A stretch of DNA of 49,503 bases from Candidatus Rokuibacteriota bacterium. Lineage in GTDB: Bacteria > Methylomirabilota > Methylomirabilia > Rokubacteriales > CSP1-6. A program made the translations under genes and the position numbers. The notes under the pieces are model-generated. The model searched no databases. It was given only the letters and a program-made list of their open reading frames with translations, and was not told the origin of the DNA. Below are positions 6,557-36,749 of this stretch, piece after piece. How positions within the stretch are numbered: the stretch's first letter is position 1; each line of letters starts with the position of its first letter. Where the stretch lies: assembly GCA_016209635.1 (NCBI GenBank), contig JACQWC010000153.1, positions 1 to 49,503 of the forward strand, in the 5' to 3' direction.

Positions 6557-6561
6557 GCCAA

Positions 6562-7218
6562 TCAGCCCACCCGGAGGTCGAGCCGCACTGCGCGCTCGAT
6601 AGCGGCCATGAGCAGCACGATCGAGAGCGCGAGGAGCACATAGAGGATCGTGATCGCCGTCGCTGCCTCGAAGCCCCGGAAGGTCATGGACTCGATCTGC
6701 TGGGTCTGGAACGTGAGCTCCGTCACGCTGATGGTCATGGCGATGGACGAGTTCTTGATGACATTGATGAACTCGATGCCGAGGGGCGGGATGACCCGAA
6801 TCAGAGCCTGGGGCAGAACCACGTGGCGGATCGCCTGGTACGGCGTCATCCCGAAGGAGCGGGCCGCCTCGATCTGGGTGCGGGGAATCGACTGGAGGCC
6901 CGAGCGCATCACCTCGGCGATGTACGCGCTCGTGTAGACGGTGAGCCCGATCACGGCGGCCGGGAACGACTCGAGCCCGACCGCGAAGTACCAGAAGAAG
7001 AGCTGGACGATCAGCGGGATGTTCCGGAAGAACTCGATGTAAGCGCCGCACAGCCAGCGGAGGGAGACCGCGTCCGCCCGGCGGCCGATACCGATCACCC
7101 CGCCCAGAGCCAAGCTTAGCACCATGCTCGCGGCCGAGATCTCCACGGTCAGGAGGAGACCCTGCCGGAGCAGGTGCCGGTAGACCAGGAGCACGCTCCA
7201 GTCGAACGTGTAGGCCAT
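6562..7218 (-). CDS. Amino acid ABC transporter permease (HisQ/GltJ family)
   Basis: MAYTFDWSVLLVYRHLLRQGLLLTVEIS start; EAA loop IEAARSFGMTPYQAIRHVVLPQALIRVIPPL. Confidence 0.9.
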   Translation of the reverse strand: MAYTFDWSVLLVYRHLLRQGLLLTVEISAASMVLSLALGGVIGIGRRADAVSLRWLCGAYIEFFRNIPLIVQLFFWYFAVGLESFPAAVIGLTVYTSAYIAEVMRSGLQSIPRTQIEAARSFGMTPYQAIRHVVLPQALIRVIPPLGIEFINVIKNSSIAMTISVTELTFQTQQIESMTFRGFEAATAITILYVLLALSIVLLMAAIERAVRLDLRVG

Positions 7219-7305
7219 GGCGCCGCCTCGGCGTGCGCCTAGAAGCGCGGCGGTCTGCGCATCGTGAAAGGATGCCCCGTCGGTTCGACCGAGCCGGCTA
7301 GCGCA

Positions 7306-8112
7306 CTACAGCTTCCAGGGGAAGATCCGCAGCTCGGGATCGGGATCGACGCCGAGGAGCTTGCGGTGGACGGCCTTGTACGTCCCATCCTCCCACATCT
7401 CGATGAGCGCGAAGTTGATGAAGTCCCTCCACTTGGAGTCATTCTCGCGGACGGCGATCCCCATCGGGGCCTTCGACGTCGCTCCGCTCACCACTTCCAG
7501 CTCGGGATGGTCCTTCGCGAAGAGGTAGAGGGGGACGTCATCGTCCACGTAGGCGTCGGCTTTGCCCTGCTTCACCGCCAGCACCGCCTGCGGCTTGTCC
7601 TGGAAGACGAGCGTCTTGGCCCGCGGCTGCTCCTGGAGGACCTTCTTCTCCCACGGGGTGCCCTGGGTGAAGGTCACGGTCTTCCCGGCCAGACTCGCGT
7701 AGCCCCTGATCCCGCTGCCCTTCTTGACGAGGAAGCTGCCGCCGCTCAAGAAGTACGGGATCGTGAAGTCCACCACCTTCTCGCGCTCGATGGTGATCGT
7801 GAAACTCGCCGCCAGCACGTCGACGGTGCCGTTCGACAGCATCGGGATGCGGTTCGCGGAAGTCACCGGACGCAGGTCGAGCTTGACCCCCAGCTTCTTC
7901 GCCAGGTAGTTCATGATCTCGATGTCGAATCCGACGAGCTGCCCGTCCTTGTCCGTGTAGCCGAACGGGGGGTAGTCAGCCTTCACGCCCGCGATCAGCG
8001 TCCCTCGCTTCTTCACGACATCGAGCGTGGACTCCTGAGCCGCCGCCGGGCTCGCCCAGGCCACCGTCAGGACCGCCACCAGCACTGCTGTGAGCACCCG
8101 TGTCACACGCAT
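7306..8112 (-). CDS. Amino acid ABC transporter substrate-binding protein (SBP_bac_3 family)
   Basis: Signal peptide MRVTRVLTAVLVAVLTVAWASPAAAQ; KKRGTLIAGVKADYPPFGYTDKDGQLVGFDIEIMNYLAKKLGVKLDL. Confidence 0.92.
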   Translation of the reverse strand: MRVTRVLTAVLVAVLTVAWASPAAAQESTLDVVKKRGTLIAGVKADYPPFGYTDKDGQLVGFDIEIMNYLAKKLGVKLDLRPVTSANRIPMLSNGTVDVLAASFTITIEREKVVDFTIPYFLSGGSFLVKKGSGIRGYASLAGKTVTFTQGTPWEKKVLQEQPRAKTLVFQDKPQAVLAVKQGKADAYVDDDVPLYLFAKDHPELEVVSGATSKAPMGIAVRENDSKWRDFINFALIEMWEDGTYKAVHRKLLGVDPDPELRIFPWKL

Positions 8113-8155
8113 CGTCGTCCCTCCTCCTCGGGTTCCCTTCCAGGACCGCGCGTCG

Positions 8156-8884
8156 TCAATGGGCCAGGATCTTGCTCAGGAACATTTGTGTGCGGGGGTT
8201 GGCCGGCCGCGCGAAGAAGGCCTCCGGAGGCCCTTCCTCGACGATGCGCCCGTCGTCCATGAACACGACGCGGTCGGCGACCTTCCTCGCAAAGCTCATC
8301 TCGTGCGTGACCACCACCATGGTCATCCCGTCCCGCGCCAGGCCGACCATGACGTCCAACACCTCGTTGATCATCTCCGGATCTAGCGCGGAGGTCGGCT
8401 CGTCGAAGAGCATGATCCGCGGCTGCATGGCGAGCGCCCGGGCGATGGCGACGCGCTGCTGCTGCCCCCCCGAGAGCTGACTCGGGAAGGCGTCGGCCTT
8501 CTCGGGCATGCCCACCCGGGCGAGAAGGTCCCGAGCCGCGCGCTCGGCCTCGGCGCGCGGCTGGCCCCGCACGATGACGGGCGCCAGAGCGATGTTCCGG
8601 AGCGCAGTCATGTGCGGGTACAGGTTGAACGACTGGAACACCACGCCGATCTCCGCTCGGAGCCGGCGCAGGTCGGTGCCGGGGGCGCCCAGCACCCGGC
8701 CGTCTACGATCACCTCGCCCTGCTGGACCGGCCCGAGGCCATTGATGCACCGGAGCAGGGTGCTCTTCCCGGAACCCGAGGGCCCGCAGACCACGAGCAC
8801 CTCGCCGGCGGCGACCTTGAGGTCGACGTCACACAGCACTTGGTGGGAGCCGTACCACTTGCTCACCCGGCGGAACACGATCAT
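8156..8884 (-). CDS. Amino acid ABC transporter ATP-binding protein (GlnQ/HisP family)
   Basis: Walker [19 protein letters not shown]-loop [13 protein letters not shown]; signature [16 protein letters not shown]; Walker [16 protein letters not shown]-loop VVVTHEM. Confidence 0.95.
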
Positions 8885-10248
8885 CGAGCGCGGCTCAGCT
8901 CCTCGACAGCCGCGGTGATCCCACGGTCGAGAATGTCGGCGGCCCGGTCCAGCTCGGCATGGGTCGAGTAGAACGGGGGCACGAACCGAAGGACGCTCCC
9001 GTTCCGGCGCACGCTCAACAGGAGGCCGCCGGTCAGGCAGTGGCGGGAGATGGCCTTGCCCGCCTCGAAGTACGGCGCCCTCGAGTGGCGGTCCCGCACC
9101 AGCTCGATGCCCTGGATCAGTCCCCGGCCGCGGACATCGCCGATCACCTCGTGCTCGACCGCCAGCGTCTCCAGGTGACTCCGCCAGTACTTCCCGACCT
9201 CCCGGGCACGCTCGGGGAGGTTGTCGCCGACAATCACGTCGAGACTCGCGATGGCGGCGTTGCAGGGCAGCGGGTCGTTGGTGTGCGAGTGCCCGACCAC
9301 GAGCCCGCGCTGCGCGACGACTTCCTCGATTTCGGCCGTGGTGATGACCGCGCTGATCTCGATGCCTCCCCCGAAGTGCTTGGCGATGGAGAGCAGGTCC
9401 GGGATGACGCCCTCCTGCTCGCAGGCGAACATGCTGCCGAGCTTGCCGAGCCCGGTCTGCGACTCGTCGAAGATGAGGAGCATGTCCCGCTCCCGGCACG
9501 CCCGCTTGAGCGCTCCCAGCCAGCCGGAAGGGGGCTCGATGACGCCGCCCGCGCTGAACAGAGGCTCGGTGATGACGGCGGCCAGGCTGCCGGTGGACTG
9601 GGCGTCCAGCACCTCCATGCTCCCCTTGAGGCAGGCCAGCTCGCACTTGGGGAAGGTGAGGCCGATCGGACAGCGATAGCAGTAGGGGGCCATGATCGCG
9701 TAGGTGCCGGGGGTCATGGGGCCGTAGCCCTGGTGCCAGCCGGCGAAGGTGAGCGATCGGCTCGCCTCCGACATCCCGTGGAAGCTCACGTGCGGGCTCG
9801 CCACCTCGAAGCCCCCCGTGTACTTCTTGGCGATGGCGACGGCAGCCTCGTTGGAATCGCTCCCCGAGCCGAGGAACATGGATTTCTTGAGGGGAGGCGG
9901 GGCGATCTCGCCAAGCCGGCGGGCCAGCTCGATCTCCTTCACGTTGAAGTAGCTGCTGCTGGCATGGATGAGCGTGTCGCAGCTTTCCTTGATGGCCTCC
10001 ACGATCGTGGGGTTGCTGTGGCCGAGGGCGGAGCACATCTGCCCCGAGTTGTAATCGAGGTACTCCTTGCCGTTGACATCGCGGACGACCGAGCCCCGGC
10101 CTTCACTGAGGACGGGCCCGCTGAAGCTCCCCTTGTCCATGCGGCCGCGGAAGCTGTACTCGCGCGCGATCTCGAGCCACTGCGCCTCGGTGCGCGTCTC
10201 TCCCTGGGGGCCTGCCGCTGTCGTCGTGCCCGTGGGCTTGGTCATCAT
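8881..10248 (-). CDS. Class III PLP-dependent aminotransferase-fold enzyme, 2,2-dialkylglycine decarboxylase-like
   Basis: [17 protein letters not shown] (DGD-like SGQM), [95 protein letters not shown] start at 10248. Confidence 0.82.
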
Positions 10249-10270
10249 GGCGCCTCCTTGTGCTCCTGGC

Positions 10271-10963
10271 TCAGGCGAGCTGGGGGTTCTCTCTGAGAAG
10301 GTCGGCCAGCGCCCGGTAGGCGCGCTCCGCACTCAGTCGCGCCTGGCGACCGGCGGCGGCGGCATCCCCCTGGACGAGCGCGTCCAAGATGCCCCGGTGC
10401 TCCTCGAGCGAGACGGGGAGCCGGCCCGGCAGCGACATGGCGAGGTGCCGGTACCGGAGCGTCTGCTTGCCCAGGCTCTCGAGGAGTTGGATCAGCCGCC
10501 GGTTCGGGCAGGCGTCGCGGATGACCTGGTGGAACTGAAGGTTGAGGTCGTAGTACCGGTGCACGTCGTTCTCCTTCACCGCGCGGCTCATCTCGCCGAA
10601 GATCCGCCGCATGCGCTCCACACCCGAGGGCTTGACGTGGGGGCCGGCCCGACTCGTGTAGAGCTCCTCCAGGTGGGCGAGGATCTCGAACGTGTCGGTG
10701 ACCTCCTGGGAGGTGATGGCCGCCACCTGCACACCCCGCGGCTCGTTGGACACCAGGCCCTCGCGCTCCAGCATGCGGAGGGCCTCGCGGACCGGAGCCC
10801 GGCTGACCCCAAAGGCCTCGGCCAGCGCCAGCTCGATGAGTCGCTCACGAGGCTTCCGATCCCCGGCGATGATTTCGGCCTCCAGCCGGGCCGCAATCTC
10901 GTACGCGCGCGATGAGGCGGGAAGGCGCGCTGTCTTCTTCACGGTCAACCGTCTTGTCGCCAT
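10271..10963 (-). CDS. GntR family transcriptional regulator (FCD/FadR-type)
   Basis: Winged-helix segment RLIELALAEAFGVSRAPVREALRMLEREGLV and an FCD effector domain (ILAHLEELYTSRAG...). An upstream in-frame start at 11014 is also possible. Confidence 0.9.
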   Translation of the reverse strand: MATRRLTVKKTARLPASSRAYEIAARLEAEIIAGDRKPRERLIELALAEAFGVSRAPVREALRMLEREGLVSNEPRGVQVAAITSQEVTDTFEILAHLEELYTSRAGPHVKPSGVERMRRIFGEMSRAVKENDVHRYYDLNLQFHQVIRDACPNRRLIQLLESLGKQTLRYRHLAMSLPGRLPVSLEEHRGILDALVQGDAAAAGRQARLSAERAYRALADLLRENPQLA

Positions 10964-10965
10964 TC

Positions 10966-10975
10966 TTGTCGACAA
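10966..10975. promoter_or_regulatory. Putative GntR/FCD operator palindrome TTGTCGACAA
   Basis: Perfect 10-bp palindrome directly upstream of the regulator's likely ATG; fits the TNGTNNACNA style of FCD-type GntR sites. Confidence 0.45.
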
Positions 10976-11035
10976 TATGGCGCGACGGTAGCAGAAGCGC
11001 CCAGCCCGAGTCAACCGCGCTCTAGGGTGGCCCCT

Positions 11036-12193
11036 TCACGCCTCGCTCAGCCCGTAGAGCCGCGCGCAGTTGTCCCAGAGGATCTTCCGCTTGCTCTCCT
11101 CACCCACCCCCTCGAGCCCGAGGAAGGCGTCGATGGCGTGGGGGTAGGCCGAGTCGTCGTGGGGCCAGTCGCTGGAGATGACGATGTTGTCGTCCCCGAG
11201 CGCGGGGATCGCGTACCGGACGACCGCCTCGTCCGGCTCGACCGCCACCCAGCAGTGACGCCGGAAGTACTCGCTGGGGGGCCGCGACAGGGGGAACCGC
11301 GCGTCGTCGCCGAACTTCTCTACCCGCTCGTCCAGGGTCCAGAGCCACCACGGCACCCAGCTGCAGCTCCCCTCGAGAAACGCCGCCCGGAGTCCGGGGA
11401 ACCGCTCGAACACCCCTCCGGTGAGCAGGCTCCCGACCGCGAGCATCATCTCCACCGGGTGCGCCGCGGCATGCGCCATCGCGAAGTTGTCCATGAAGCG
11501 CCGGCCCAGGTGCTCCTGGTAGGCCATCTGGATCCCGTGGAACGCGACGGGCACCCCGAGCCGTTCGGCCTCCGCCCACAGCGGATCGTAGGCCGGGTCG
11601 TACCACGGCCGGCCGTTGACGGGGTGGTTGGAGAGGACGAGGGCCACCGCCCCCAGTTCGCGCACGCACCGGCGAGCCTCCTCCACCGCGAGGCGCACCT
11701 CGTGGAGCGGCATCACCGCCGCCGCCTTGAGACGCGCCCGGTCCTTCTCGCAGAAGTCGGCCAGCCAGCTGTTGAAGGCCCGACACACGGCGGCCGACAG
11801 CTCGGGGTCCAACCCGTCGATGCCGATGAGGTGGGAGCCGATCGTGCGGAAGACGATGGCCACGTCGATGCCCTCCCGGTCCATCGCCTGCAGCATCGCC
11901 TGGGGGTCGTCTCCGCGGAGGTCCTCGGCCGGGTCGCGGTACCGCCCGCTCGCGACGTGGCGGACGCGGGCCTTCTCGCGCCGCACCCGCGCCAGCCGCC
12001 GTCGCTCGGGCCGATCGAGGAAGGCCGGGAAGACCCGGCCCTCGAACTGCCAGCCCTCCATGTTCGACCCCTCGATCGGCTCGAACCGCGGCGCGCGGTC
12101 CTTGAACCGCGGCTCCAGGTAGCGGAGCCAGAGGTCGTGGGGCTCCACGACGTGGATGTCGCTGTCCATGACCCTGAACCCGCGCTTGGCCAT
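11036..12193 (-). CDS. Amidohydrolase 2 family metal-dependent hydrolase
   Basis: MDSDIHVVEPHDLWLRYLEPRF, PVAFHG, ISSDWPHDDS and a C-terminal KILWDNCARLYGL. Confidence 0.88.
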   Translation of the reverse strand: MAKRGFRVMDSDIHVVEPHDLWLRYLEPRFKDRAPRFEPIEGSNMEGWQFEGRVFPAFLDRPERRRLARVRREKARVRHVASGRYRDPAEDLRGDDPQAMLQAMDREGIDVAIVFRTIGSHLIGIDGLDPELSAAVCRAFNSWLADFCEKDRARLKAAAVMPLHEVRLAVEEARRCVRELGAVALVLSNHPVNGRPWYDPAYDPLWAEAERLGVPVAFHGIQMAYQEHLGRRFMDNFAMAHAAAHPVEMMLAVGSLLTGGVFERFPGLRAAFLEGSCSWVPWWLWTLDERVEKFGDDARFPLSRPPSEYFRRHCWVAVEPDEAVVRYAIPALGDDNIVISSDWPHDDSAYPHAIDAFLGLEGVGEESKRKILWDNCARLYGLSEA

Positions 12194-12249
12194 CCTCCGG
12201 CCCTCCTCGCCCGTCCCGTCGTGAAGCGCCCGGCGTCCCGGCTTCCCGC

Positions 12250-13098
12250 TCAGGCCTGACCGGCGGCCTGCCGCAGCGCGGCCCGCATCTGTCCGAGCGC
12301 CTCCTGCTGCGGCGTCCAGAGCCGCCCGCCGATGAGCCCTCCGTCCACCACGAGATCGTGGCCGGTGACGAACCGCGAGTCGTCGCTCGCGAGCCACACG
12401 GCCGCGTGCGCGATGTCGTCGGGAAGCCCCGGGCCCCGCAGGGGCTGCATCCCGGTAAAGATCTGCTGCATCACCCCGGCCGTCTTCTCCGCCGCGTCGT
12501 CCGGGAGTCCCGCCACCTTGCCGAAGATGCCGGTGACGATGGCGCCAGGGGAGATGCTGTTCACGCGCACGCCGCGCTCGCCCAGCTCCATGGCCACACA
12601 GCGCGTCAGGTGGATCACCGCCGCCTTTGCCGCGCTGTAGATCGTCGAGGACGAGTAGCCCGCCCGGAGGCCAGCCACGCTGCCGTTGTTGATGATGCTC
12701 CCCGAGCCCTGCTTCTTCATGACGGGCGCCGCGTGCTTCATACCGAGCATCACGCTGCGCAGGAGGACGGCAATGGCGGCGTCGAAGCGGTCCACCGGGA
12801 TGGTCTCGATGCCGCCGGCCGGGGCGGGGCCGCCCGCGTTGTTGAAGAGGCAGTCGAGGCGCCCGAACCGGGACACCGCGTGGTCCAACACGGCCTTGAC
12901 ATCGGCCTCCCGGGTGACGTCCGCGCGCACGAAGCTCGCCCGCGGGCCGAGCGCCGCCGCGACGCCCTGCCCCAGATCCTCGCGGCGCGCGGCGATGACG
13001 ACGGACGCCCCCTCCGCGACGAATATCTCCACGGTGCGGCGGCCGATACCGCTCGTGCCACCCGTGACGATCGCGACCTTCCCGTCCAGCTTGCCCAT
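12250..13098 (-). CDS. SDR family NAD(P)-dependent oxidoreductase
   Basis: KVAIVTGGTSGIGRRT nucleotide-binding motif, NNAGG, YSAAKAAV catalytic YxxxK, C-terminal VTGHDLVVDGGLIGG. Confidence 0.93.
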   Translation of the reverse strand: MGKLDGKVAIVTGGTSGIGRRTVEIFVAEGASVVIAARREDLGQGVAAALGPRASFVRADVTREADVKAVLDHAVSRFGRLDCLFNNAGGPAPAGGIETIPVDRFDAAIAVLLRSVMLGMKHAAPVMKKQGSGSIINNGSVAGLRAGYSSSTIYSAAKAAVIHLTRCVAMELGERGVRVNSISPGAIVTGIFGKVAGLPDDAAEKTAGVMQQIFTGMQPLRGPGLPDDIAHAAVWLASDDSRFVTGHDLVVDGGLIGGRLWTPQQEALGQMRAALRQAAGQA

Positions 13099-21352: not shown

Positions 21353-21477
21353 GGCTAACCGGTTCGCCTATTCTAGCAGCGTCCAAGCGACAGAACTTGG
21401 TCGTTTGCCGGAACGCCTGCTAACGTAAGCGCGGGGCTACGGTGCGGCGGCACTATTCCTCCGAGAGAGGGCATCGG

Positions 21478-22719
21478 ATGAAGCGAAACGCCGTCATCAC
21501 GGGACTCGGCATCGTCTCGCCGATCGGCGTGGGCGTTGACCAGTTCTGGGAGGCTGCGAAAGCTGGTCGCTCCGGCATCGGGCGCCCCACCCTCTTCGAC
21601 GCCTCCAAGCTCCCTCCGGACTGTCAGATCGTCGGCGAGGTCACCGACTTCGACCCTCGCGACTGGATGCCGGGCCACACGGCGAGAATGGCGGGTCGCT
21701 TCAGTCAGTTCGCAGTGGCGGCCGCGAAGATGGCCCGCGCCGACAGCCGACTCGACACCGCGCAACTTCCATCAGACCAGCTGAAGATCTCGATCGGCAC
21801 CGCAATGAACGGTCAGATTGATCTAGGAGAGTTGACGTTCGAAGCCTTCCTCAGAGGGGAGGATGTATTGCCGTGGACGTGCCTCGAATACCCTGCTCAT
21901 GCGGCAACGAGTCACGTAGCAATGGCAGCAGGTGCTCGAGGACAAACCGCGACGTTCGCGAGCGCGTGTGCAGCAGGTTTGGACGCCATAGGCTGGGCGG
22001 CAGATGAAGTGCGGGTTGGACAGGCTACTGCTGTCTTCGCTGGAGCCACCGAGACCCCATTATCAGAGTACTCCCTCATGCTGTTCCGATCGGTTGGCGT
22101 TCTGTGCAAGTGGCAAGGGCTGCCTCAGGAGGCAAGTCGCCCCTTCGACCGTCTGAGAACTGGATTGGTTCTGGCTGAAGGTGCCGCCATATTGACGGTG
22201 GAGGAGGAGGAGCACGCCAGGGCTCGCGGAGCAGACATCTATGCACGAATCCTTAGTTCAGCAAGCGCTACCGAAGGCACACATCTCCGAAAGGTCGATG
22301 ACACTGGCGAAGCTATTGCTCGGGCCATGACGATGGCGCTTCAGCGCGCACAGCTCTCACCGGGGGAAATCGACTTTATCTGCGCCCACGGGAACTCCAT
22401 GGAAGACTACGATGCGGCGGAGACCGCCGGAATTAAGCGGGTATTCGGACGACACGCTTGGAATGTGCCGGCGTCTTCGCTGAAGTCAATGTGCGGTCAG
22501 GCTTTAGCAGCCAGCAGCGCTATGCAAGTTGTCGCATCTTGTCTTACTCTACGCGACCAAATCGTCCCGCCGACAATTAACTATCAGGTTCCCGATCCGG
22601 CTTGCGATCTAGACTACGTCCCTAACTCTTCACGTGCTGCTCGCGTTCGCACTATCTTGATCCATGCGCACAGCCTGGGTGGATCTCACGTGGCGATGAT
22701 TCTAGCCGCGCCCGATTAA
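21478..22719 (+). CDS. Beta-ketoacyl-ACP synthase (KAS I/II fold), active-site variant
   Basis: MKRNAVITGLGIVSPIGVGVDQFWEAAKAGRSGI; nucleophile FASACAAGLDAIG (Cys164); FICAHGNSMEDYDAAE (first His); KSMCGQALAASSAM where GH is expected. GAGAGAGGG ribosome-binding-like site upstream. Confidence 0.9.
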   Translation: MKRNAVITGLGIVSPIGVGVDQFWEAAKAGRSGIGRPTLFDASKLPPDCQIVGEVTDFDPRDWMPGHTARMAGRFSQFAVAAAKMARADSRLDTAQLPSDQLKISIGTAMNGQIDLGELTFEAFLRGEDVLPWTCLEYPAHAATSHVAMAAGARGQTATFASACAAGLDAIGWAADEVRVGQATAVFAGATETPLSEYSLMLFRSVGVLCKWQGLPQEASRPFDRLRTGLVLAEGAAILTVEEEEHARARGADIYARILSSASATEGTHLRKVDDTGEAIARAMTMALQRAQLSPGEIDFICAHGNSMEDYDAAETAGIKRVFGRHAWNVPASSLKSMCGQALAASSAMQVVASCLTLRDQIVPPTINYQVPDPACDLDYVPNSSRAARVRTILIHAHSLGGSHVAMILAAPD

Positions 22720-22731
22720 GTAAGCTGTCAC

Positions 22732-25206
22732 GTGGCGCAGATCTCCTTCTTCGGCCTCTCCGCGGTTCTTGTGGCACTTGCGCTGTTCGTGTGGCGAGCG
22801 AAACCCGGCAATCAGATTAACCGGTGGTTTGCAGTCCAGACCGTTTTCTTTGCAAGCTGGGTCTTCGGAATCGGGGGACTCCAAGGCGGTATCCATCTTG
22901 ATGTCTGGGGACGCTTTACTTTCGCGAGCGCGAGCCTAATCCCAGCGGCCTTCCTCGCTTTTACGCAATGTTATCCTACTCCTAGCCGCTGGCCACAGCC
23001 TCTTCTTTCTCGGACAATATTCGCGATTGCCGTCGCTTTCGCAGTTCTCTCGCTCACGACTCCGTTGCTTGTCTATGACGTCTCTGTGGGTCCAGAGGGA
23101 CTCGTGCGAAGGACGGGGCCTTTATATCCCGCCTTCTCGGTCTACTTCCTCATCACCTGGCTTGCGGCACTTTGTGTGTTCGTCCGGAAATGGCTCAACT
23201 CACGTGGCCGTGCTCGAGCCCAACTCCAATACCTTGGCACTGGCATTATCATTTCCGGCGCCGGAGGAATTGGAGTAAACCTCTTGCTCCCGCTCATCAC
23301 GGGCCGCTCAACGTACAGCTGGATGGGCCCCTACTTCAGCCTTGTATTTGTCGCGATGGTTGCCCATGCCATCATTCGCCACCGCCTGATGGACCTACGA
23401 CTCGCCATCAACAGGAGTCTCGCGTATGCCGTTGCGATCGTTTGCGTCTCCGCCGTAATTATCACCTTAGGGCGATTCGCCGTCAGGGGATGGACAGCCG
23501 GCACCGTTCCACTGCCTCACGATGTCTTGGTGATCCTCGTTGTCGGACTCCTAATGCTATCCACACCGATCCAGAGTCTATTCGATCGACTTATTGATCC
23601 GTACCTTTACCGAGGCCGCATCGAGTACCCGTCAGCACTGCGTGAAGCAACGCACCGACTCAGCCGCCTCATGCAACCCGCAGAGCTGGCAGCCGAACTC
23701 CGTCAAATTCTTACAGCAGCGTTTGTACCCGATTCTTTCGCGATGCTCGTCAAACCATTCGAAGCTCACGCTCTCGACCATCTTGGCGAAGACACGCCGG
23801 CGGTTGTAGACCTCCTGACCATTGCAATTCTTACAACCGATCGATCCAGCCCCTCTGTCCTAATGGTTAATCCGGGAGACGAGACAGGTCCGAGCAAGAT
23901 CGCTCACGACGCCCTCCGCGCTTCAGGAATTGAAATCGTTGTGACGCTCGGCCGTCGTGGCCAGTTGCTCGGCGCCATCCTGCTGGGTCCCCGGAAGAGC
24001 GGAGACACCTACTTTGCCAAAGATTTGGCGTTCATCGAGTCGCTAGCTGAACTCGCCTCGATTGCTCTCGATAACGCCCTACTTTATCGGCAGCGTATTC
24101 AGATCCTCGAGTACTCCGAGAGACTGCTCGAATCACTCGACTCGGCGGTCGTCGCCGTCGACGTGGTAGGCAAGATCGCGAGCTTCAATCCGGCCGCAAA
24201 GACGTTGCTTGGATTGCGTGACGCCACCCGCGGCGCCCCGCTCGACGCGGTGCCTCCGGAAATCGGCTGGGCTCTTGCCCTCGCGATTCGTGGCTCATCA
24301 GCGCCCCGCGAAGTCGAGGCGAAGATTGACCACGAAGCTCGCGGTCTCCTGCCAGTTATTCTTTCGACCGCCGTCCTCCATGACGATCGCCAGGAAATCA
24401 CAGGAGCTCTCGTCGTCGTGACCGACCTCTCGACCGTCAAGGCTCTGGAACGCAACCAGAGACGCGTCGAGCACCTCGCCCTGATGGCCCGCTTCTACGC
24501 GGGGATTGCACATGAGATTCGTAGCCCACTCACCTCGATCTCAAACTTCATCGCGATGCTCCCCGATCGATTCAACGACCCCGAGTACCGCGACACAGCC
24601 GTGCGTTTACTGCCCATCGAGGTTGCGCGGATCGTGCGTCTAGCGGATCGCCTGCGCCTGATGGCGCCAAGTGAGGGGGGCACACTCACCCGGGTCGCTC
24701 TCGGTCGCCTACTGAGCGACATAGTCGCAATCCACACCAGTGCGGCTGAAGAGCAAGGCGTGAAGATCCTTCTGCATTGTCCTGAGGAGCTACCCAGAAT
24801 TCTTGGCGATACGGGTCAACTTATACAGCTCTTCGTCAATCTTTTGAACAACGCGGCCGAGGCGATGCTCGCTGGAGGACTTGTCCTCATCGAGGTTGTT
24901 CACATCAGCGAGCGTAGCGGCAGCGAGCTTATCAGGGTTCGGGTGATCGACGATGGCGTCGGGATCAGTCCCACGCTCCGCAATAGGATATTTCAGCCCT
25001 TCTTCACCACCAAGCCGGCTGGTACTGGGCTTGGTTTACCAATCTGTCGCGAAATTGCCGACTTCCATCATGCGCGTCTCGAGCTCCTGCCCCAGTCAAG
25101 TGGCCGAGGTACCATTGCCCAGATCGAATTTCCCTGCCTAGCGTTAGAGGCGACGGACCAACACGAGTCATTCGATTCACGCGGTGCTAGAGGCAGTCAC
25201 GCTTGA
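22732..25206 (+). CDS. Membrane sensor histidine kinase (7TM-like N-terminus, GAF/PAS, HisKA, HATPase)
   Basis: GTG start; multiple hydrophobic helices; PAS-like LLESLDSAVVAVDVVGKIASFNPAA; H-box GIAHEIRSPLTSISNF; N-box VNLLNNAAEAM; G1 VIDDGVGIS; G2 GTGLGLPI. Confidence 0.93.
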   Translation: MAQISFFGLSAVLVALALFVWRAKPGNQINRWFAVQTVFFASWVFGIGGLQGGIHLDVWGRFTFASASLIPAAFLAFTQCYPTPSRWPQPLLSRTIFAIAVAFAVLSLTTPLLVYDVSVGPEGLVRRTGPLYPAFSVYFLITWLAALCVFVRKWLNSRGRARAQLQYLGTGIIISGAGGIGVNLLLPLITGRSTYSWMGPYFSLVFVAMVAHAIIRHRLMDLRLAINRSLAYAVAIVCVSAVIITLGRFAVRGWTAGTVPLPHDVLVILVVGLLMLSTPIQSLFDRLIDPYLYRGRIEYPSALREATHRLSRLMQPAELAAELRQILTAAFVPDSFAMLVKPFEAHALDHLGEDTPAVVDLLTIAILTTDRSSPSVLMVNPGDETGPSKIAHDALRASGIEIVVTLGRRGQLLGAILLGPRKSGDTYFAKDLAFIESLAELASIALDNALLYRQRIQILEYSERLLESLDSAVVAVDVVGKIASFNPAAKTLLGLRDATRGAPLDAVPPEIGWALALAIRGSSAPREVEAKIDHEARGLLPVILSTAVLHDDRQEITGALVVVTDLSTVKALERNQRRVEHLALMARFYAGIAHEIRSPLTSISNFIAMLPDRFNDPEYRDTAVRLLPIEVARIVRLADRLRLMAPSEGGTLTRVALGRLLSDIVAIHTSAAEEQGVKILLHCPEELPRILGDTGQLIQLFVNLLNNAAEAMLAGGLVLIEVVHISERSGSELIRVRVIDDGVGISPTLRNRIFQPFFTTKPAGTGLGLPICREIADFHHARLELLPQSSGRGTIAQIEFPCLALEATDQHESFDSRGARGSHA

Positions 25207-25240
25207 GCGAAAGCTGCCTCACTTCCGAGTGACCTAAACG

Positions 25241-27682
25241 ATGGTTCAATTCTCCCTGCTTGCCGTCGCTGCCACCCTCGTGGCTCTCGCAGCGTTTGTC
25301 TGGCGCGCTCGACCGGGGAACGCTATCAACTGTTGGTTCGCTGCGTTTACGATGTTCGTCGGGTGCTGGACTGTCGGCATAGCCGGTCTGCAATCCGGAA
25401 CCTATCTTGAGGTGTGGGGGCGTTTCACGTTCGCGGCGGCAGCCTTCATTCCAGCTGCGTTCCTCGCCTTCACGCGATGCTATCCGACGCTAAGCCGCTG
25501 GCCATCACCTACGGTCATCCGAAGCACTCTCGTCCTTGCAGCTATATTCGCGTTCATGTCCGGATTCACTTCCCTCCTCTTCTATGACGTCTCGATGACC
25601 GAGCAAGGCCTGGCTCGCAAACCCGGTTCGCTCTATGTCCCATTCGCCCTCTATTTTGTAATCACCTTCGGCGGCGCCATCGCCCTCCTCATTTCGAAAT
25701 GGTGGCACGTGCAGGGACTTGCGCGAGCTCAACTTCAGTTCCTGGGGAGCGGGGTCATCATTTCAGGCGCAGGGGCCATCAGCGCGAATCTACTCCTTCC
25801 ACTCGCCACCGGCCGCTCCACATATGCGTGGCTCGGACCCTCCTTTGGTGTCGTACTTGTCGCCCTCGTGGCGCACGCGATCATTCGGCACCGCTTGATG
25901 GACCTGCGGCTGGTGATTCATCACGGGCTGGCGTACGCCCTGGCGATGCTTCTGTCCCTGGCGCCCGTGGCGGTTCTTCTCGCCTTCTTCTGGCCACGAC
26001 TCTCGAGCCACCTGCGCCGCGGTGAACTGCTCATCTTTCTGGCGGCGATCGCGCTGGTCAGCCTGCTCGTCCCACTCACGAAGGATCTCGCCGAGCGAGT
26101 CCTCGATCGATACGTCTACCGGACGCACGCGAACTACCAGCGGATCGTTCGCGAAGCCAGCCAGGTTCTGACCGGCGTCCTGGAGCTCAAGGTGCTGCTG
26201 CCCTTCCTGAGCCGCACCGTCGCTGCCTCGACGGAAGCGGAAGGCGTCGGAATCTACCTGCAAGCCGGGCCGGACTTCGTCAAGGCCAGCGCCGAACGAC
26301 GCCATCCCGAAGGCCGCTTCGAAAGCCCGGAGAGAGCGCCCGCCTCGGTCGCCGAGCTGCTGGTGGAGACGAGACAACCGCTGCTCGCCGAGGAGATCGC
26401 CCGGGAAGGGCCGTCCGATGGAACGCGGCTCGGCTGGCAGGACCTGACGCGGCTCAACTGGTCGCTCGTGCTGCCGCTCTTGTCGAAGAACGCCGTCATC
26501 GGCGCGATCGTCGTGGGGCCCAAGCGCTCGGGGGACCCGTTCTACCCTCAAGACTTGGATCTCCTGATGACGCTGGCCAACCAGGCCGGGATCGCGATCA
26601 AGAACGCCCAGCTCTACGCGCAGGTGGTTCTGGTGAACGAATACATCCAGAACATCGTGGCGACGATCGAGAGCGGGGTCGTGGCCATCGACCCAGCCGG
26701 CCGCATTACCTTGTTCAATCGGGCCGCCGAGCAGCTGACCGGCCACTCATCGGCGGAGATGACGCTCCAGCACGTGTCGGCCCTCCCGGCCTCCCTCAGC
26801 GAGCCGCTGCTCACCACGCTGGACGACGGGCTCGGTCGCACCGAGCCGGACGTCGACCTGCCCGGCGCCGGCGTGACCCGTCCCGTCATCTGCACGACCT
26901 CTCCCCTGCGCGACCCGGCCGGAAGCGTCCTCGGAGCCGTCGCGGTCTTCAGCGATCTGACCCCGCTGAAGGAGCTCGAGATCGAGCGTCGCCGGGCGGA
27001 GCGGCTGGCCTACTTCGAGGTACTGGCCTCGGGGATCGCGCACGAGATCAAGAACCCGCTCGTGGCCGTGAAGACCTTCGCCCAGCTCGTGCCGCGACGG
27101 CAGGGTGACGAGCGGTTCCTCGACAACTTCAGCCGCATCGTCACGCGCGAGATCGCACGGATGGAGCGGCTGGTGGACCGCCTGCGCACGCTCTCGCGAC
27201 TGAGCGAGCGCCCGCGCCACTCGCTCGATCTGCGCACGCCGATCAGCGAGGCGCTCGAATTCCTCCAGGCCGCATTCGACGAGAAGCGGATCGCGGTGAC
27301 GGTCGACCTCGGCGACGCGCCGCGCTTCGTCGCGGGCGACCACGGCGAGCTGGAGCAGCTCTTCCTCAACCTCACGCTGAACGCCCACGAGGCGATGGCG
27401 CCGGGGGGCGCGCTCGAAGTCCGACTCGCCGCCACCGAGAGCGCCGCGATCGTGACGGTCGCGGACACGGGCGCGGGCGTCCCGCCCGAGCTGCTCGAGC
27501 GTATCTTCGATCCGTTCTTCACCACGAAGCAGCGCGGCTCGGGGCTGGGTCTCGCGATCTGCGCCGGCATTGCCGACGCCCATCGGGCCAAGCTCCGGGT
27601 CGCGAACCGCACGGGTGGCGGGGCCATCTTCACCGTCGAGTTTCCGCTCACGGCGCCCGTCACGGCTCCGGTACAAGCATGA
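25241..27682 (+). CDS. Membrane sensor histidine kinase, tandem paralogue of the preceding gene
   Basis: N-terminus closely parallels 22732-25206 (FVWRARPGNAINCWFA..VGIAGLQSGTYLEVWGRFTFAAAAFIPAAFLAFTRCYPT). H-box GIAHEIKNPLVAVKTF; N-box LNLTLNAHEAM; DTGAGV; GSGLGLAI. Confidence 0.94.
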   Translation: MVQFSLLAVAATLVALAAFVWRARPGNAINCWFAAFTMFVGCWTVGIAGLQSGTYLEVWGRFTFAAAAFIPAAFLAFTRCYPTLSRWPSPTVIRSTLVLAAIFAFMSGFTSLLFYDVSMTEQGLARKPGSLYVPFALYFVITFGGAIALLISKWWHVQGLARAQLQFLGSGVIISGAGAISANLLLPLATGRSTYAWLGPSFGVVLVALVAHAIIRHRLMDLRLVIHHGLAYALAMLLSLAPVAVLLAFFWPRLSSHLRRGELLIFLAAIALVSLLVPLTKDLAERVLDRYVYRTHANYQRIVREASQVLTGVLELKVLLPFLSRTVAASTEAEGVGIYLQAGPDFVKASAERRHPEGRFESPERAPASVAELLVETRQPLLAEEIAREGPSDGTRLGWQDLTRLNWSLVLPLLSKNAVIGAIVVGPKRSGDPFYPQDLDLLMTLANQAGIAIKNAQLYAQVVLVNEYIQNIVATIESGVVAIDPAGRITLFNRAAEQLTGHSSAEMTLQHVSALPASLSEPLLTTLDDGLGRTEPDVDLPGAGVTRPVICTTSPLRDPAGSVLGAVAVFSDLTPLKELEIERRRAERLAYFEVLASGIAHEIKNPLVAVKTFAQLVPRRQGDERFLDNFSRIVTREIARMERLVDRLRTLSRLSERPRHSLDLRTPISEALEFLQAAFDEKRIAVTVDLGDAPRFVAGDHGELEQLFLNLTLNAHEAMAPGGALEVRLAATESAAIVTVADTGAGVPPELLERIFDPFFTTKQRGSGLGLAICAGIADAHRAKLRVANRTGGGAIFTVEFPLTAPVTAPVQA

Positions 27683-29628
27683 AGACGGTGCTCCTCGTCA
27701 CGCCCGACGAGCGGCTGCGCGCGCGTCTCGGCCGGGCGCTCGCCGCCTACTCGGTGTTCGTCGCGCAGAACGACGGCGATGCTCTCAAAACGCTCCGGCT
27801 CATCGAGATCGATCTGGTGATCCGCGAGGGCGCCGGACCGGGACACGGGCTCGAGGCGTTCGTGTCGAGACTGAAGGAGGTCGCGCCGGAGGCCCTGACC
27901 ATCGCGATCGAACCGGCACTGGACGAGGTCGACGCCGCCGATTTCGTCGTTCCCGGCGGTTTCGGCCAGCGCGAGCTCGAGGCCGCGCTTCGCCGCGCCG
28001 CCGAGAAGCACCGCCTCGCGCGGGAACTCGCGACCCTCCGTTCGCGGGCCGCATCCCCGCCGCCGGCCCCGTCCGCCGCCGAGGCCCCCTGGGACGGCGC
28101 CACGCTGGCGCGGATCCTGACCGAGTTCACCCGCGTGTTCGCCGCGGGCTTCGATCTCTCGCGGCTCCTCGACATGTTCCTCGACGCGATCGGCAGGCTG
28201 GTCCGACCCGTACGGATGGCGCTGCTGCTCCCCGACCCGAACGGCGAGGACTATCGGATCCGGGCACACCGCGGCTTGCCGCCGCAGCTCGTCGATTCGC
28301 TGCGCCTGTCGGCGACCACCGGGCTCTCGCGCTGGCTCGCCACCCAGGGTCGGCCGGCGCGGGTGCAAGACCTCGCCGACGCGGAGGTCACCCGCGAGCT
28401 GACGCTGCTCCAGGGCGTCGTCGCCATTCCGTTGCTGGCGAACGGCGAGCTGGTCGCGATGCTCGTCATCGGCCAGCCGGTGATGGGCGGACAGTACGAT
28501 CGGCGCGAGACGGAAACCCTGTTCGATCTGGCGGCGCATGTGGCCACCGCGATCCGCAACATCGCGCTCCACGAGCAGCTCCGGCGCGAGATGGAATTCA
28601 ACGAGCGGATCCTCGCGCACATGTCGAGCGGCGTCATCACGATCGGCCGCGACCACCGGGTGGGAACGCTGAACCGGCGCGCCGAGGAGATCCTGGAGCT
28701 CGCCGCGCAGACCGTCCTCGGCCAAGATCTCCGGGTCCTGCCGTCCCCCCTGGGCGATATGCTCTTCGGGACGCTCTCGTCCGGTCACGCGCTGGCCCGG
28801 TCCGAGATCCAGCTGGCGCTCCGCGGGCGATGGCTCGAAGTCTCGACGTACCCGATCTACGGCGATGAGCCCACGCCGCTCGGCGCGGTCCTCGTCTTCG
28901 AGGACCTGACGGCGCAGAAGGAGCTCGCGAACCAGAAGCGCCAGGCCGAGCAGCTCCAGCTCCTCACCCGCGTCGTCGCGCGCATCGCCGACGAGATCAA
29001 GAATCCGCTCGTGTCCATCAACACCTTCATGGAGCTGATCGAAGAGCGCTTCGACGACCCGGATTTCCGCAAGCACTTCTCCGCCGTCGTGGGACGGGAC
29101 GTGCGGCGCCTCGTCCAGGTCTTCGAAAAACTTGCGGGGCTCGTCAGCGAAGGTGAGTTAAACTTCGTGCCGGTGGACGTCCATACGGTCATTGATGAAC
29201 TGGTGGCCGCGATCGAGCTGGGCGACGACACGATCGGCAAGCCCGTCCAGCTCGAGGTCGCCCGCGAGACGACCCCGCAGGTGGTCAAGGTCGACCCGGC
29301 CCAGCTCCGCAAGGCATTTTCCTACCTCGTCCGATACCTCGGCCACAACTCTCCCGTCGAGCCGGCGAAGGTCTCGATCTCGGTCGGACGGCATCCCGAC
29401 GGGGACGGGGATGCGGGCGTCCGGGTCCTCTTCACCTCGCGCACGGCTGCGGTCGCTCCGGACAAGCTCCAGCGCCTGTTCGACCCGGTCCAGATGGTGC
29501 AGGAGAGCCTGATCGACGTCGGTCCGGCCGTGAGCCAGCGCCTGATCGAGGCCTTCGGCGGACGCCTGCGCCTGCGCCAGAGCCGGCACGAGCTGGCCTT
29601 CCTCGTGACGCTCCCCGCGGCCCCATGA
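27679..29628 (+). CDS. Degenerate signalling protein: pseudo-receiver + GAF + PAS + pseudo-histidine-kinase
   Basis: N-terminal receiver-like MKTVLLVTPDERLRARLGRAL..IDLVIREGAGPGHGLEAF (Glu at the phospho-Asp position); GAF and PAS-like middle; RIADEIKNPLVSINTFMELIEERF (Asp instead of His); no recognisable N, G1 or G2 box in the C-terminal domain. Confidence 0.8.
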   Translation: MKTVLLVTPDERLRARLGRALAAYSVFVAQNDGDALKTLRLIEIDLVIREGAGPGHGLEAFVSRLKEVAPEALTIAIEPALDEVDAADFVVPGGFGQRELEAALRRAAEKHRLARELATLRSRAASPPPAPSAAEAPWDGATLARILTEFTRVFAAGFDLSRLLDMFLDAIGRLVRPVRMALLLPDPNGEDYRIRAHRGLPPQLVDSLRLSATTGLSRWLATQGRPARVQDLADAEVTRELTLLQGVVAIPLLANGELVAMLVIGQPVMGGQYDRRETETLFDLAAHVATAIRNIALHEQLRREMEFNERILAHMSSGVITIGRDHRVGTLNRRAEEILELAAQTVLGQDLRVLPSPLGDMLFGTLSSGHALARSEIQLALRGRWLEVSTYPIYGDEPTPLGAVLVFEDLTAQKELANQKRQAEQLQLLTRVVARIADEIKNPLVSINTFMELIEERFDDPDFRKHFSAVVGRDVRRLVQVFEKLAGLVSEGELNFVPVDVHTVIDELVAAIELGDDTIGKPVQLEVARETTPQVVKVDPAQLRKAFSYLVRYLGHNSPVEPAKVSISVGRHPDGDGDAGVRVLFTSRTAAVAPDKLQRLFDPVQMVQESLIDVGPAVSQRLIEAFGGRLRLRQSRHELAFLVTLPAAP

Positions 29629-31937
29629 CCACCGCAGCACCGCCGATCCTCCAGTCGCGCATCCTCGTCGTCGACGACGAGTTGGGGCCGCGCGAGTCGC
29701 TCCGCATGCTGCTCAAGCCGTCCTACCAGGTGCGAACGGCGGAGAGCGGTCGCGTCGCGCTGGACGAGCTGCCGAAGTTCCGGCCCGATCTCGTGATCAT
29801 GGACATCAAGATGCCCGAGATGGACGGGCTGGAGGTCCTGCGGCGCATCAAACGCATCGAGCCGTCCATCGAGGTCGTCATGATCACGGCGTACGCGTCG
29901 CTCGAGACGGTGAAGCTGGCCCTGACGCACGGCGCGTTCGAATACCTCATCAAGCCGTTCTCGCGCCAGGACCTCGAAGACGTCGTGCGCCGCGCGCTGC
30001 TCCGCCGCCAGGCCGACCTCGGCACGCGGGGCCAGGTCACGAAGCTGGTGGAGGAGATGCGGAGCCTGGCCGCGAAGACGCGCCAGCTCGAGGAGACCGC
30101 ACGGCGGGAAGCGGCCGAGCAGTCGTTGCGGGTGACGCAGCTCTCGATCCTGAGGGAGATCTCCGGCACGATCGTCGGCCAGCTCGACCTCCACGAGGTG
30201 ACGACCGCGGTCATGGAGCAGCTTCGCACGGCGCTCGGCTATGACAGCGTGATGGTCACGCTGGAGGCCCCGCCCTCGACCGAAGCCGAGAGCGCCTGCT
30301 TCGTGACCTGCCAAATCCGCGACGCCGAGGGGCTGCTCGGGTACCTCGTCGTCGACAACCGCCCGTCCTGGCGTTCCATCGATCCCCGCGAGCGCGAGCT
30401 CCTGGAGATGCTCTCGGAGTACCTCGCGATCGCCGTGCGGAACTCACGGCTGTATGGCGAGATCGCCGAGACCAAGCGCTCCCTCGAGCAGCTGATCGCG
30501 TCGGCCGGCGACGCCATCATCTCCGTGAACGCGTCGAACTACATCCACGGCTGGAATCCCGCGGCCGAGCGCATCTTCGGGCTCGGCGCGGGCTCGGCGG
30601 TGGGCCGTCCGATCACCGACTTCCTGCCGAGCGCCCACTACGCGGAGGCCCGGCGGCGGCTGGCGGACGGCGCCCCCATGCACGCGTTCGAGACCACGAC
30701 GACGTCCGGACGGACGCGCCCGACCGAGCTCGCCGTGACGCTGTCGGCGCTGCGCGACCGCCAGGGGCAACTCGAAAAGCTGATCGCCATCGTTCGTGAT
30801 GTCACCGCGCAGCGCGCGCTGGAAAACCAGCTGCACCAGTCCGAGAAGTTGACGGCGCTCGGGCAGCTCGCGGGCGGCATCGCGCACGACTTCAACAATC
30901 TCCTGCAGGCGATCCTCGGCTACGCCCAGCTCATGCGGCAGAATCTGGACAACGCCGAGCTCGTGCAGCGGTCGCTGCGGGTGGTCGAGGATGCGGCGCT
31001 CGACGGGTCCGAGACGGTGCGCCGGATCCAGCAGTTCTCTCGCCTCCGTCCGGATGAGGAGTTCATGGCCGTCGACGTCAATCAGATCGTGCAGAACGCC
31101 GTCGCCATCACCCGGCCACGCTGGGATGAGAAGATCGCCCACGAGAATCGCCCCCTCGACCTCCGGCTCGAGCTCCGGGCCGTCCCGCCCATCAACGGCC
31201 GCCCGGCCGCGCTGACCGAGCTGATGACCAACCTGATCCTCAACGCGATGGACGCCATGCCCGAGGGGGGCACGCTCACGATCGGCACGCGCGTGGAGGA
31301 CGGGCGGTCGGTCGTCGTGACGGTCGCCGACACCGGTATCGGGATGCCCGAGGCGGTGCGCCGCCGCGTCTTCGAGCCGTTCTTCTCGACCAAGGGCGAG
31401 CGCGGCTCCGGCCTCGGCCTCTCGATGGCGTACTCCATCGCGAAGCGCCACGGCGGCGAGATCGGCGTCGAGAGCGAGCCCGGCCGCGGGGCGATGTTCA
31501 CGCTCACCTTCCCGGCCGCCGCCGAGGCCTCCGGAAAGGCGACGCCCGCCTCGGCGACCCGGCCCCGCCGGACGGCGCGCATCCTCATCGTGGACGACGA
31601 GCCGAAGGTGCTCGGCACACTCGCGGAGATGCTCAAGAGCGCCGGTCACACCGTGACACCGGCGTCGACGGGCGCCGCGGCGCTGGCGGACTACGCACGG
31701 GGCCGTTTCGACGTGGTCCTCACCAACCTCGGCATGGTCGGCATGAACGGCTGGGAGCTCGCCGAGCGGCTGCGCGTCGTCGATCGGTCGGTGCCAATCC
31801 TCTTCATCACGGGCTGGGCGCTGCGCGACGAGGACCATCCTCGCCTGATGACGCTCAACATCCACCGGTGTCTCTTCAAGCCCGTGCGTCCCGACGAGCT
31901 CGACGCGGCGATTCAGGCCGCGCTCCAGCCCGCCTGA
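29625..31937 (+). CDS. Hybrid sensor kinase: receiver-GAF-PAS-HisKA-HATPase-receiver
   Basis: N-terminal RILVVDDE..LVIMDIKMPEMDGLEVL; PAS ASAGDAIISVNASNYIHGWNPAAERIFGL; GGIAHDFNNLLQAILGYAQLM; NLILNAMDAMPEGG; GERGSGLGLSMAYSIAKRHGG; C-terminal RILIVDDE..FDVVLTNLGMVGMNGWEL..LFKPV. Confidence 0.93.
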   Translation: MTTAAPPILQSRILVVDDELGPRESLRMLLKPSYQVRTAESGRVALDELPKFRPDLVIMDIKMPEMDGLEVLRRIKRIEPSIEVVMITAYASLETVKLALTHGAFEYLIKPFSRQDLEDVVRRALLRRQADLGTRGQVTKLVEEMRSLAAKTRQLEETARREAAEQSLRVTQLSILREISGTIVGQLDLHEVTTAVMEQLRTALGYDSVMVTLEAPPSTEAESACFVTCQIRDAEGLLGYLVVDNRPSWRSIDPRERELLEMLSEYLAIAVRNSRLYGEIAETKRSLEQLIASAGDAIISVNASNYIHGWNPAAERIFGLGAGSAVGRPITDFLPSAHYAEARRRLADGAPMHAFETTTTSGRTRPTELAVTLSALRDRQGQLEKLIAIVRDVTAQRALENQLHQSEKLTALGQLAGGIAHDFNNLLQAILGYAQLMRQNLDNAELVQRSLRVVEDAALDGSETVRRIQQFSRLRPDEEFMAVDVNQIVQNAVAITRPRWDEKIAHENRPLDLRLELRAVPPINGRPAALTELMTNLILNAMDAMPEGGTLTIGTRVEDGRSVVVTVADTGIGMPEAVRRRVFEPFFSTKGERGSGLGLSMAYSIAKRHGGEIGVESEPGRGAMFTLTFPAAAEASGKATPASATRPRRTARILIVDDEPKVLGTLAEMLKSAGHTVTPASTGAAALADYARGRFDVVLTNLGMVGMNGWELAERLRVVDRSVPILFITGWALRDEDHPRLMTLNIHRCLFKPVRPDELDAAIQAALQPA

Positions 31938-35960: not shown

Positions 35961-36749
35961 CTACTTCGAGGCCAGGACGATCGGGCCGGTGGGCGTGTCC
36001 ACGCCGCCGGCGGGCTCGAGCGTCACCGCGAAGACGTCCACCGGCGGCCCGGCCGCCGGCGGCGCGCGGTGACTCCCACGGCCGGAGGCGTCGACCTCGA
36101 AGAGCCCCGCCGCGCGTGGCGTGCCGCCCGCGATCGTCCAGAGCTCGTACGTCTTCCCCGGCGGCGCCGGCGGGAGCTTCTCGACGAAGACGTGGCCGCC
36201 CGCCGTCGCGTGCCAGATCACGCGGCCCGTCGCGTCGGGGCTCGGCCCGGCACCGCGGAGCGCCAGGACGCGGGTCGCCGGGTCGCGCAGGAGGTCGACG
36301 ACGCTCTGGTAGGCAGCGACCTGGGCCCGCAGGGACGCCTCCTCGCGCTGGAGGCTCCGGCGCAGCGCCGCCATCTCTCGGGCCATCGTCCCGAGGCGCG
36401 CCTCGTAGTAGCCGGCGACGTAGGCGCCCGTCAGCGCCGAGCCCACGACCACCGCGGCGGCCGTTCCCACCGCCCACCGGACCCAGCCGCGGCGGGGAGC
36501 CGGTGCCCGGGCAGGCGCAGAGGATTCCACCCGAGCGCGACGGAGGAGCGACTCCCTCACGTCGGGCGGCGGGATCCTCGGCGGCCCGGCGAGCGTCGCC
36601 TTCGCGAGCGTCTCGGTCGACTCCCGCAGCGCCGCCTCGCACCGCGGGCACCCCTGGGCGAGGTGGCGCTCGAACTGCGCCAGCTCGTCGCCGTCGAGGG
36701 CGCCGACCGCGTAGACCTGCGCCAGGGTCTCGAAGACTTCGTGGTTCAT
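35961..36749 (-). CDS. Zinc-finger anti-sigma factor (RskA-like)
   Basis: HLAQGCPRCEAAL (HxxxCxxC ZAS motif); single TM VGTAAAVVVGSALTGAYVAGYY; RskA-like C-terminal PPAPPGKTYELWTIAGG. Overlaps the sigma factor gene. Confidence 0.88.
   Translation of the reverse strand: MNHEVFETLAQVYAVGALDGDELAQFERHLAQGCPRCEAALRESTETLAKATLAGPPRIPPPDVRESLLRRARVESSAPARAPAPRRGWVRWAVGTAAAVVVGSALTGAYVAGYYEARLGTMAREMAALRRSLQREEASLRAQVAAYQSVVDLLRDPATRVLALRGAGPSPDATGRVIWHATAGGHVFVEKLPPAPPGKTYELWTIAGGTPRAAGLFEVDASGRGSHRAPPAAGPPVDVFAVTLEPAGGVDTPTGPIVLASK

Follow-up and report, generated by a model that had tools for sequence, protein, structure and literature searches.

A conserved pseudo-histidine-kinase with aspartate at the phospho-acceptor site, encoded among intact kinases in a Rokubacterial operon

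PSK is a 649-residue histidine kinase homologue encoded by a soil bacterium of the Candidatus Rokuibacteriota (assembly GCA_016209635.1, contig JACQWC010000153.1), of which positions 1 to 49,503 form the window, i.e. the whole stretch of 49,503 nucleotides that was analysed. The gene lies between two further kinase genes, HK2 and HYB, in a conserved operon that also encodes the kinase HK1 and a ketoacyl synthase (KAS). Its reading frame is open over all 649 codons and shares 4 nt with each neighbour, the end of HK2 being at 27682 and the start of HYB at 29625; the open frame and both overlaps had been described in an earlier sequence-only reading of this DNA. The gene and its parts are the following.

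27679-29628, + strand: PSK, consisting of pseudo-receiver, GAF, PAS, pseudo-HisKA and pseudo-HATPase, 649 aa (open frame, Pfam, AlphaFold2 (AF2), orthologues in about 50 genomes)
27679-28050, + strand: pseudo-receiver, residues 1-124 (AF2 fold, orthologue alignment, profile match)
28114-28578, + strand: GAF domain, residues 146-300 (Pfam)
28579-28923, + strand: PAS domain, residues 301-415 (Pfam)
28924-29148, + strand: pseudo-DHp (HisKA), residues 416-490 (orthologue alignment)
28990-28992, + strand: Asp438 (GAC), invariant, at the position of the phospho-accepting His (codon and orthologue alignment)
29158-29625, + strand: pseudo-CA domain, residues 494-649 (orthologue alignment, profile match, predicted fold)

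Pfam searches with the single PSK sequence give clear GAF and PAS matches, a HisKA score at the cut-off (25.7 bits against 26.9, and 29.3 bits, slightly above the cut-off, for the same stretch in a six-frame search), a HATPase_c score far below it (just 16.2 bits against 26.4) and no Response_reg match, so that a single-sequence search recognises the DHp but sees the CA and receiver domains only weakly. The HisKA sequence match recurs in 40/40 members of the family. A profile built from 40 orthologues finds its best PDB match in ThkA (3a0r, profile positions 304-650, E=5e-26), a PAS-HisKA-HATPase protein in which the phospho-His stands opposite D438 and which keeps the catalytic His and the ATP boxes, whereas PSK has neither. 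The same profile also matches other DHp-CA chains, and at its N-terminus receiver chains (3jte, E=1.7e-5). The AF2 model shows an alternating beta-alpha receiver-like N-terminal domain, GAF, PAS and CA with good confidence, and a poorly modelled DHp (pLDDT <50 at 438-448 and 482-491). PSK has no membrane region.

The H-box of PSK reads RIADEIKNPLVSI, compared with GIAHEIKNPLVAV in HK2, and carries Asp (codon 438, GAC) in place of the phospho-accepting His that marks a canonical HisKA kinase. This replacement had been noted before, together with the proposal to follow the residue in orthologues, where it is Asp in 41/41 full-length sequences as well as in partial copies and outgroups. It is present in all 118 loci that bear the PSK signature (41 distinct sequences, many of the loci overlapping), and a restored His, which would have pointed to recent loss, was found in none of them. 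The outgroup copies, which are 43-47% identical, read LTDEIKNPLVSI and LADEIKNPLVSI and keep Asp438. Within this genome the His is kept in 31 of the 32 HisKA domains that score over the Pfam cut-off (counted as loci retrieved by six-frame genome searches), the exception being PSK, and the published share of HisKA domains without it is 0.9% (PMC12632262). Having no His, PSK cannot, on the evidence of its sequence, carry out autophosphorylation or phosphotransfer at the HisKA site. The surrounding residues E439, K441, N442, P443, L444, V445 and S446 are all invariant, and the pseudo-DHp is the most conserved part of the protein, with 80% mean pairwise identity and 26 of 75 columns invariant; the corresponding identities are 64% for the HK2 DHp and 78% for both the HYB DHp and the first HYB receiver (REC1).

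The fixation of the site as Asp in all orthologues, instead of a mere loss of the His, speaks for a scheme in which Asp438 imitates phospho-His and PSK permanently holds an unphosphorylated receiver. This scheme is nonetheless improbable, as an acidic side chain is a poor likeness of phospho-His, the Asp was possibly kept for packing or inherited contacts, and the single codon used at the site fits the bias of the gene towards GAC (82%). The same bias explains the uniformity at the nucleotide level (GAC in 41/41, followed by GAG in 41/41), for which a constraint on the DNA itself was considered and rejected; synonymous diversity shows no exceptional dip around codon 438.

None of the ATP-binding boxes N, G1 and G2 is present in the C-terminal domain, in agreement with the earlier failure to recognise them. 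Tyr takes the place of the N-box asparagines (Y549, Y553), SRTA (beginning at S587) that of the DxGxG box and VGPxVSQR (V614 to R621) that of the GxGLGL box. Across orthologues S587, T589, F601-D602-P603, G615-P616 and V618-S619-Q620-R621 are invariant, and the presence of other invariant residues where the boxes would be marks a replacement and not an erosion. Structure prediction of this domain, which had been suggested as a check, yields a histidine kinase CA fold with a pLDDT of 87.9 for the CA alone. A PDB fold search with the whole PSK model gave poor superpositions owing to domain flexibility and was rerun with the CA domain by itself; the model then reaches TM-scores of 0.7-0.8 to histidine kinase CA domains, and the top fold matches are structures of RetS. 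The CA fold of PSK is thus supported by the predicted model.

The pseudo-receiver is the least conserved domain of PSK (48% mean pairwise identity), and a Response_reg match is obtained in just 2/40 members. The PF00072 active-site set, i.e. the Asp pair, the phospho-Asp, the T/S and the K, is not found in it. The acidic pair of the Mg2+ pocket is gone (T8 and P9 here; T, A or S at 8 and variable at 9 in orthologues), the KP motif is missing from this PSK as described before, and its Lys is mostly absent across orthologues. This protein does have Glu at the phospho-Asp site (codon 50, 27826-27828), from which a phosphomimetic receiver had been suggested. That suggestion is rejected because the site is variable (Asp in 27, Gly in 7, Glu in 5, His in 1 and Gln in 1 of 41 orthologues) and the acidic pair is lost. 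The N-terminal domain of PSK is probably a structural or interaction element.

About 50 genomes, all from one order, carry PSK; the named records among them are Candidatus Rokubacteria or Rokuibacteriota, with an identity to the orthologues of 51-71% inside the family and of 43-47% in two other families. In other families of the class generic kinases are the sole matches, and a scan of the contigs of 84,980 species with peptides from close relatives returned Rokubacterial loci and one generic kinase only, distant homologues elsewhere being possible. In ten close pairs (dS 0.18-0.31) the dN/dS ratio (omega) is 0.07-0.22 for the whole gene and 0-0.10 for the DHp, the lowest part of the gene, and nothing near the relaxed value of 1 is seen. 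Distant pairs were left out because their omega rises through saturation of dS. In 9/10 of the close pairs the omega of PSK lies below that of one or more intact neighbours, and in 8/10 it lies below that of HYB. The gene is under strong purifying selection with the DHp as the most constrained part, and this selection shows that PSK is functional. The class of pseudo-histidine-kinases comprises histidine kinase homologues that lack at least one histidine kinase function and are kept by selection (PMC12632262), and PSK belongs to it. Two enzymatic domains without catalytic residues might also be expected from recent decay or an annotation artefact; this explanation, which retains next to no credence, is ruled out by the replacement residues, which are invariant, by the low omega, and by a frame and overlaps that are conserved in about 50 genomes. 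With synteny kept as well, simple decay had rightly been doubted.

The neighbouring genes of the operon are as follows.

21442-22719, + strand: KAS, a FabF-like ketoacyl synthase that opens the conserved operon; Cys176 and His316 kept, Gln353 at the second catalytic His
22732-25206, + strand: HK1, seven-transmembrane (7TM)-GAF-PAS-HisKA-HATPase, motifs intact (Pfam, motifs)
25241-27682, + strand: HK2, 7TM-GAF-PAS-HisKA-HATPase, motifs intact, the protein of this genome closest to PSK (Pfam, motifs, similarity)
29625-31937, + strand: HYB, REC1-GAF-PAS-HisKA-HATPase-REC2, canonical REC1 and intact kinase motifs (Pfam, motifs)
31725-31727, + strand: Asn701 of HYB at the phospho-Asp site of REC2 (orthologue comparison)

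In HK1 and HK2 the H, N, G1, F and G2 boxes are all intact, and the sensor region of each is seven-transmembrane. The order KAS-HK-HK-PSK-HYB is kept in all loci with long enough contigs, with variants in which both upstream kinases are HK2-like (some lineages) or in which the genes before PSK are two KAS and a single kinase (the outgroup locus G050). The 4-nt overlap of PSK is kept with the upstream kinase in 37/39 loci and with HYB in 36/41. No HYB orthologue was seen without PSK where the contig continues upstream, and PSK is absent from the checked genomes that have no HYB orthologue. In 16 genomes where PSK is missing or partial, or which are outgroups, HYB orthologues are absent, lie beside PSK or start at a contig edge (G019, G040 and G046). 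The second receiver of HYB has Asn at the phospho-Asp site in 63 loci of family orthologues, the three cases with Asp being other hybrids, and mostly keeps the Asp pair and the Lys in spite of Asn701; the HYB of G050 is without REC2. With PSK lacking the His and the REC2 Asn fixed, the operon circuit holds one fixed dead kinase and one fixed dead receiver.

In a tree of kinase cores PSK forms a single clade (100/100), set apart by a long branch of 2.56 changes per site, and lies next to HK1 and HK2 and not to HYB; the support of the joining branch is 83/68 and the placement is tentative. The H-box helix of PSK is closest to that of HK2 among 26 kinases compared, which would follow either from recognition of one receiver by both or from shared ancestry. 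The kinship with HK2, together with the 4 nt shared with the upstream kinase gene in 37/39 loci, would suit a PSK that pairs with HK2 (or HK1) via the DHp, inhibiting or activating autophosphorylation and bringing cytosolic GAF/PAS signals to a membrane kinase. Such pairing has parallels in RocA of group A Streptococcus, a pseudokinase that modulates its partner kinase CovS through interaction (PMC7028121), and in the heterodimers of ChrS and HrrS found in a study of the ChrS pseudokinase. It is regarded as rather unlikely for PSK, which has no membrane region and whose core, on its long separate branch, may have diverged in dimer specificity. RocA, unlike PSK, is a six-transmembrane protein with a dispensable DHp His and other domains.

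Few natural pseudo-histidine-kinases have been studied. DivL of Caulobacter, which is without the phospho-His, acts neither as a kinase nor as a phosphatase; it recognises DivK~P through the face of the DHp where receivers dock, and the hybrid kinase CckA is under its control (PMC4211667). Like DivL, PSK has a replaced phospho-His, PAS input, a conserved surface on the DHp at which receivers would dock, a predicted lack of kinase activity and a hybrid kinase in its network, here HYB in the same operon, and the strong conservation of the PSK DHp is consistent with a receiver sensor of the DivL type. DivL has Tyr at the His site, whereas PSK has Asp and has lost the ATP motifs outright; unlike DivL, PSK has a GAF domain and a pseudo-receiver and is encoded in the same operon as its likely partners, and orthology is not claimed. 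RetS of Pseudomonas, which has a degenerate CA, dephosphorylates the GacS receiver via HExxT and blocks GacS autophosphorylation (PMC5992135). Both RetS and PSK have a degenerate CA without G boxes and a DHp phosphatase motif of the ExxT/N type after the H position (E439 and N442, invariant in 41/41), but RetS keeps the His and two receivers, one of which accepts phosphate, and PSK does neither.

The retained motif, the activity of RetS and the finding that the His is inessential for HisKA phosphatase activity (PMC12632262) raise the possibility that PSK gave up kinase activity, kept ExxN and works solely as a transmitter phosphatase, on HYB REC1 or on a distant response regulator. This is considered rather unlikely since DivL, also without the His, is no phosphatase and stabilises DivK~P, since the way in which His loss is distributed over domain families does not suit a phosphatase as the general role (reviewed in PMC12632262), and since RetS retains His where PSK has Asp. 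A last comparison is the LvrA-LvrB system of Leptospira with LvrB, a REC-controlled histidine kinase switched on by an upstream kinase through its N-terminal receiver (PMC13269768). Its plan of an N-terminal receiver on a soluble kinase is that of HYB and of the dead PSK. PSK differs from LvrB, whose kinase is active and whose receiver can be phosphorylated, in having neither property; the REC1 and the kinase motifs of HYB are canonical. PSK belongs to the functional class of pseudo-histidine-kinases and stands outside the DivL, RetS and RocA families, as its domains, substituting residue and rebuilt CA motifs differ; it is a new family which works like known pseudo-histidine-kinases.

It is proposed that the 7TM kinases HK1 and HK2 would phosphorylate the canonical REC1 of HYB, a soluble REC-controlled kinase, and that REC1 would act through the HYB kinase on a downstream regulator, as judged by analogy. 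The PSK DHp would serve as a docking bundle by which PSK, with its own GAF/PAS input, would bind REC1 or pair with a neighbouring kinase and set the phosphorylation or availability of REC1, either in the manner of DivL, by sensing its phospho-state, or in that of RetS, by a dephosphorylation that depends on E439 and N442. PSK is very probably a functional dead-kinase regulator of its operon, and by analogy REC1 may be its direct target, although this is held tentatively. Of the earlier suggestion that PSK modulates the neighbouring kinases, a conserved non-kinase protein encoded with kinases stands (invariant Asp438, low omega, synteny and overlaps), while a contact of PSK with HK1, HK2 or HYB and the kind of effect it has stay inferred.

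The overall reading, to which a probability of roughly 0.6 is given, is that PSK is a long-established functional pseudo-histidine-kinase of one order that is translated in step with HK2 and HYB and acts through its DHp on REC1 or on a neighbouring kinase. Several points weigh against it: the retained ExxN fails to discriminate a phosphatase from a sensor, an Asp facing the phospho-Asp of a receiver could disfavour binding of the phosphorylated form, the likeness of the DHp to that of HK2 may be pure ancestry, and vertical descent of a single operon would also lead to the co-conservation of PSK with it. A further, speculative idea, considered doubtful, is that Y549/Y553, SRTA, FDP and VGPxVSQR form a new conserved pocket or interface acquired by the pseudo-CA, the histidine kinase core being reused as a receiver- or ligand-reading device in a circuit with a fixed dead receiver (the Asp-to-Asn change in HYB REC2) that is started by a ketoacyl synthase possibly making the signal of the 7TM kinases.

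The PSK family combines one His-to-Asp change fixed across an order with an ATP site rebuilt with conserved residues, in a dead protein as constrained as the adjacent live kinases. Because the compact operon names the likely partners of PSK, whether a dead kinase senses a receiver, dephosphorylates it or pairs with a kinase is directly testable with few purified proteins. A natural comparison without the dead kinase is found in a related genome (G007, locus L189, G007:C7:35000-54000, 6451-12786), which has KAS with an HK1-like kinase and a divergent HK2-like kinase, and neither PSK nor an orthologous HYB.

Residue 353 of KAS (22498-22500) is Gln (KSMCGQ) in most orthologues and His in a few, with the Cys and the first His retained, and an altered chemistry of the enzyme is possible. 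A literature search on Rokubacterial kinases or on ketoacyl-synthase/kinase operons found nothing relevant. The arrangement of KAS followed by two 7TM kinases (21442-31937) resembles synthase-plus-membrane-receptor signalling pairs. A few kb downstream an RskA-type anti-sigma factor is encoded on the - strand (35961-36749), in a region that is conserved in several related loci.

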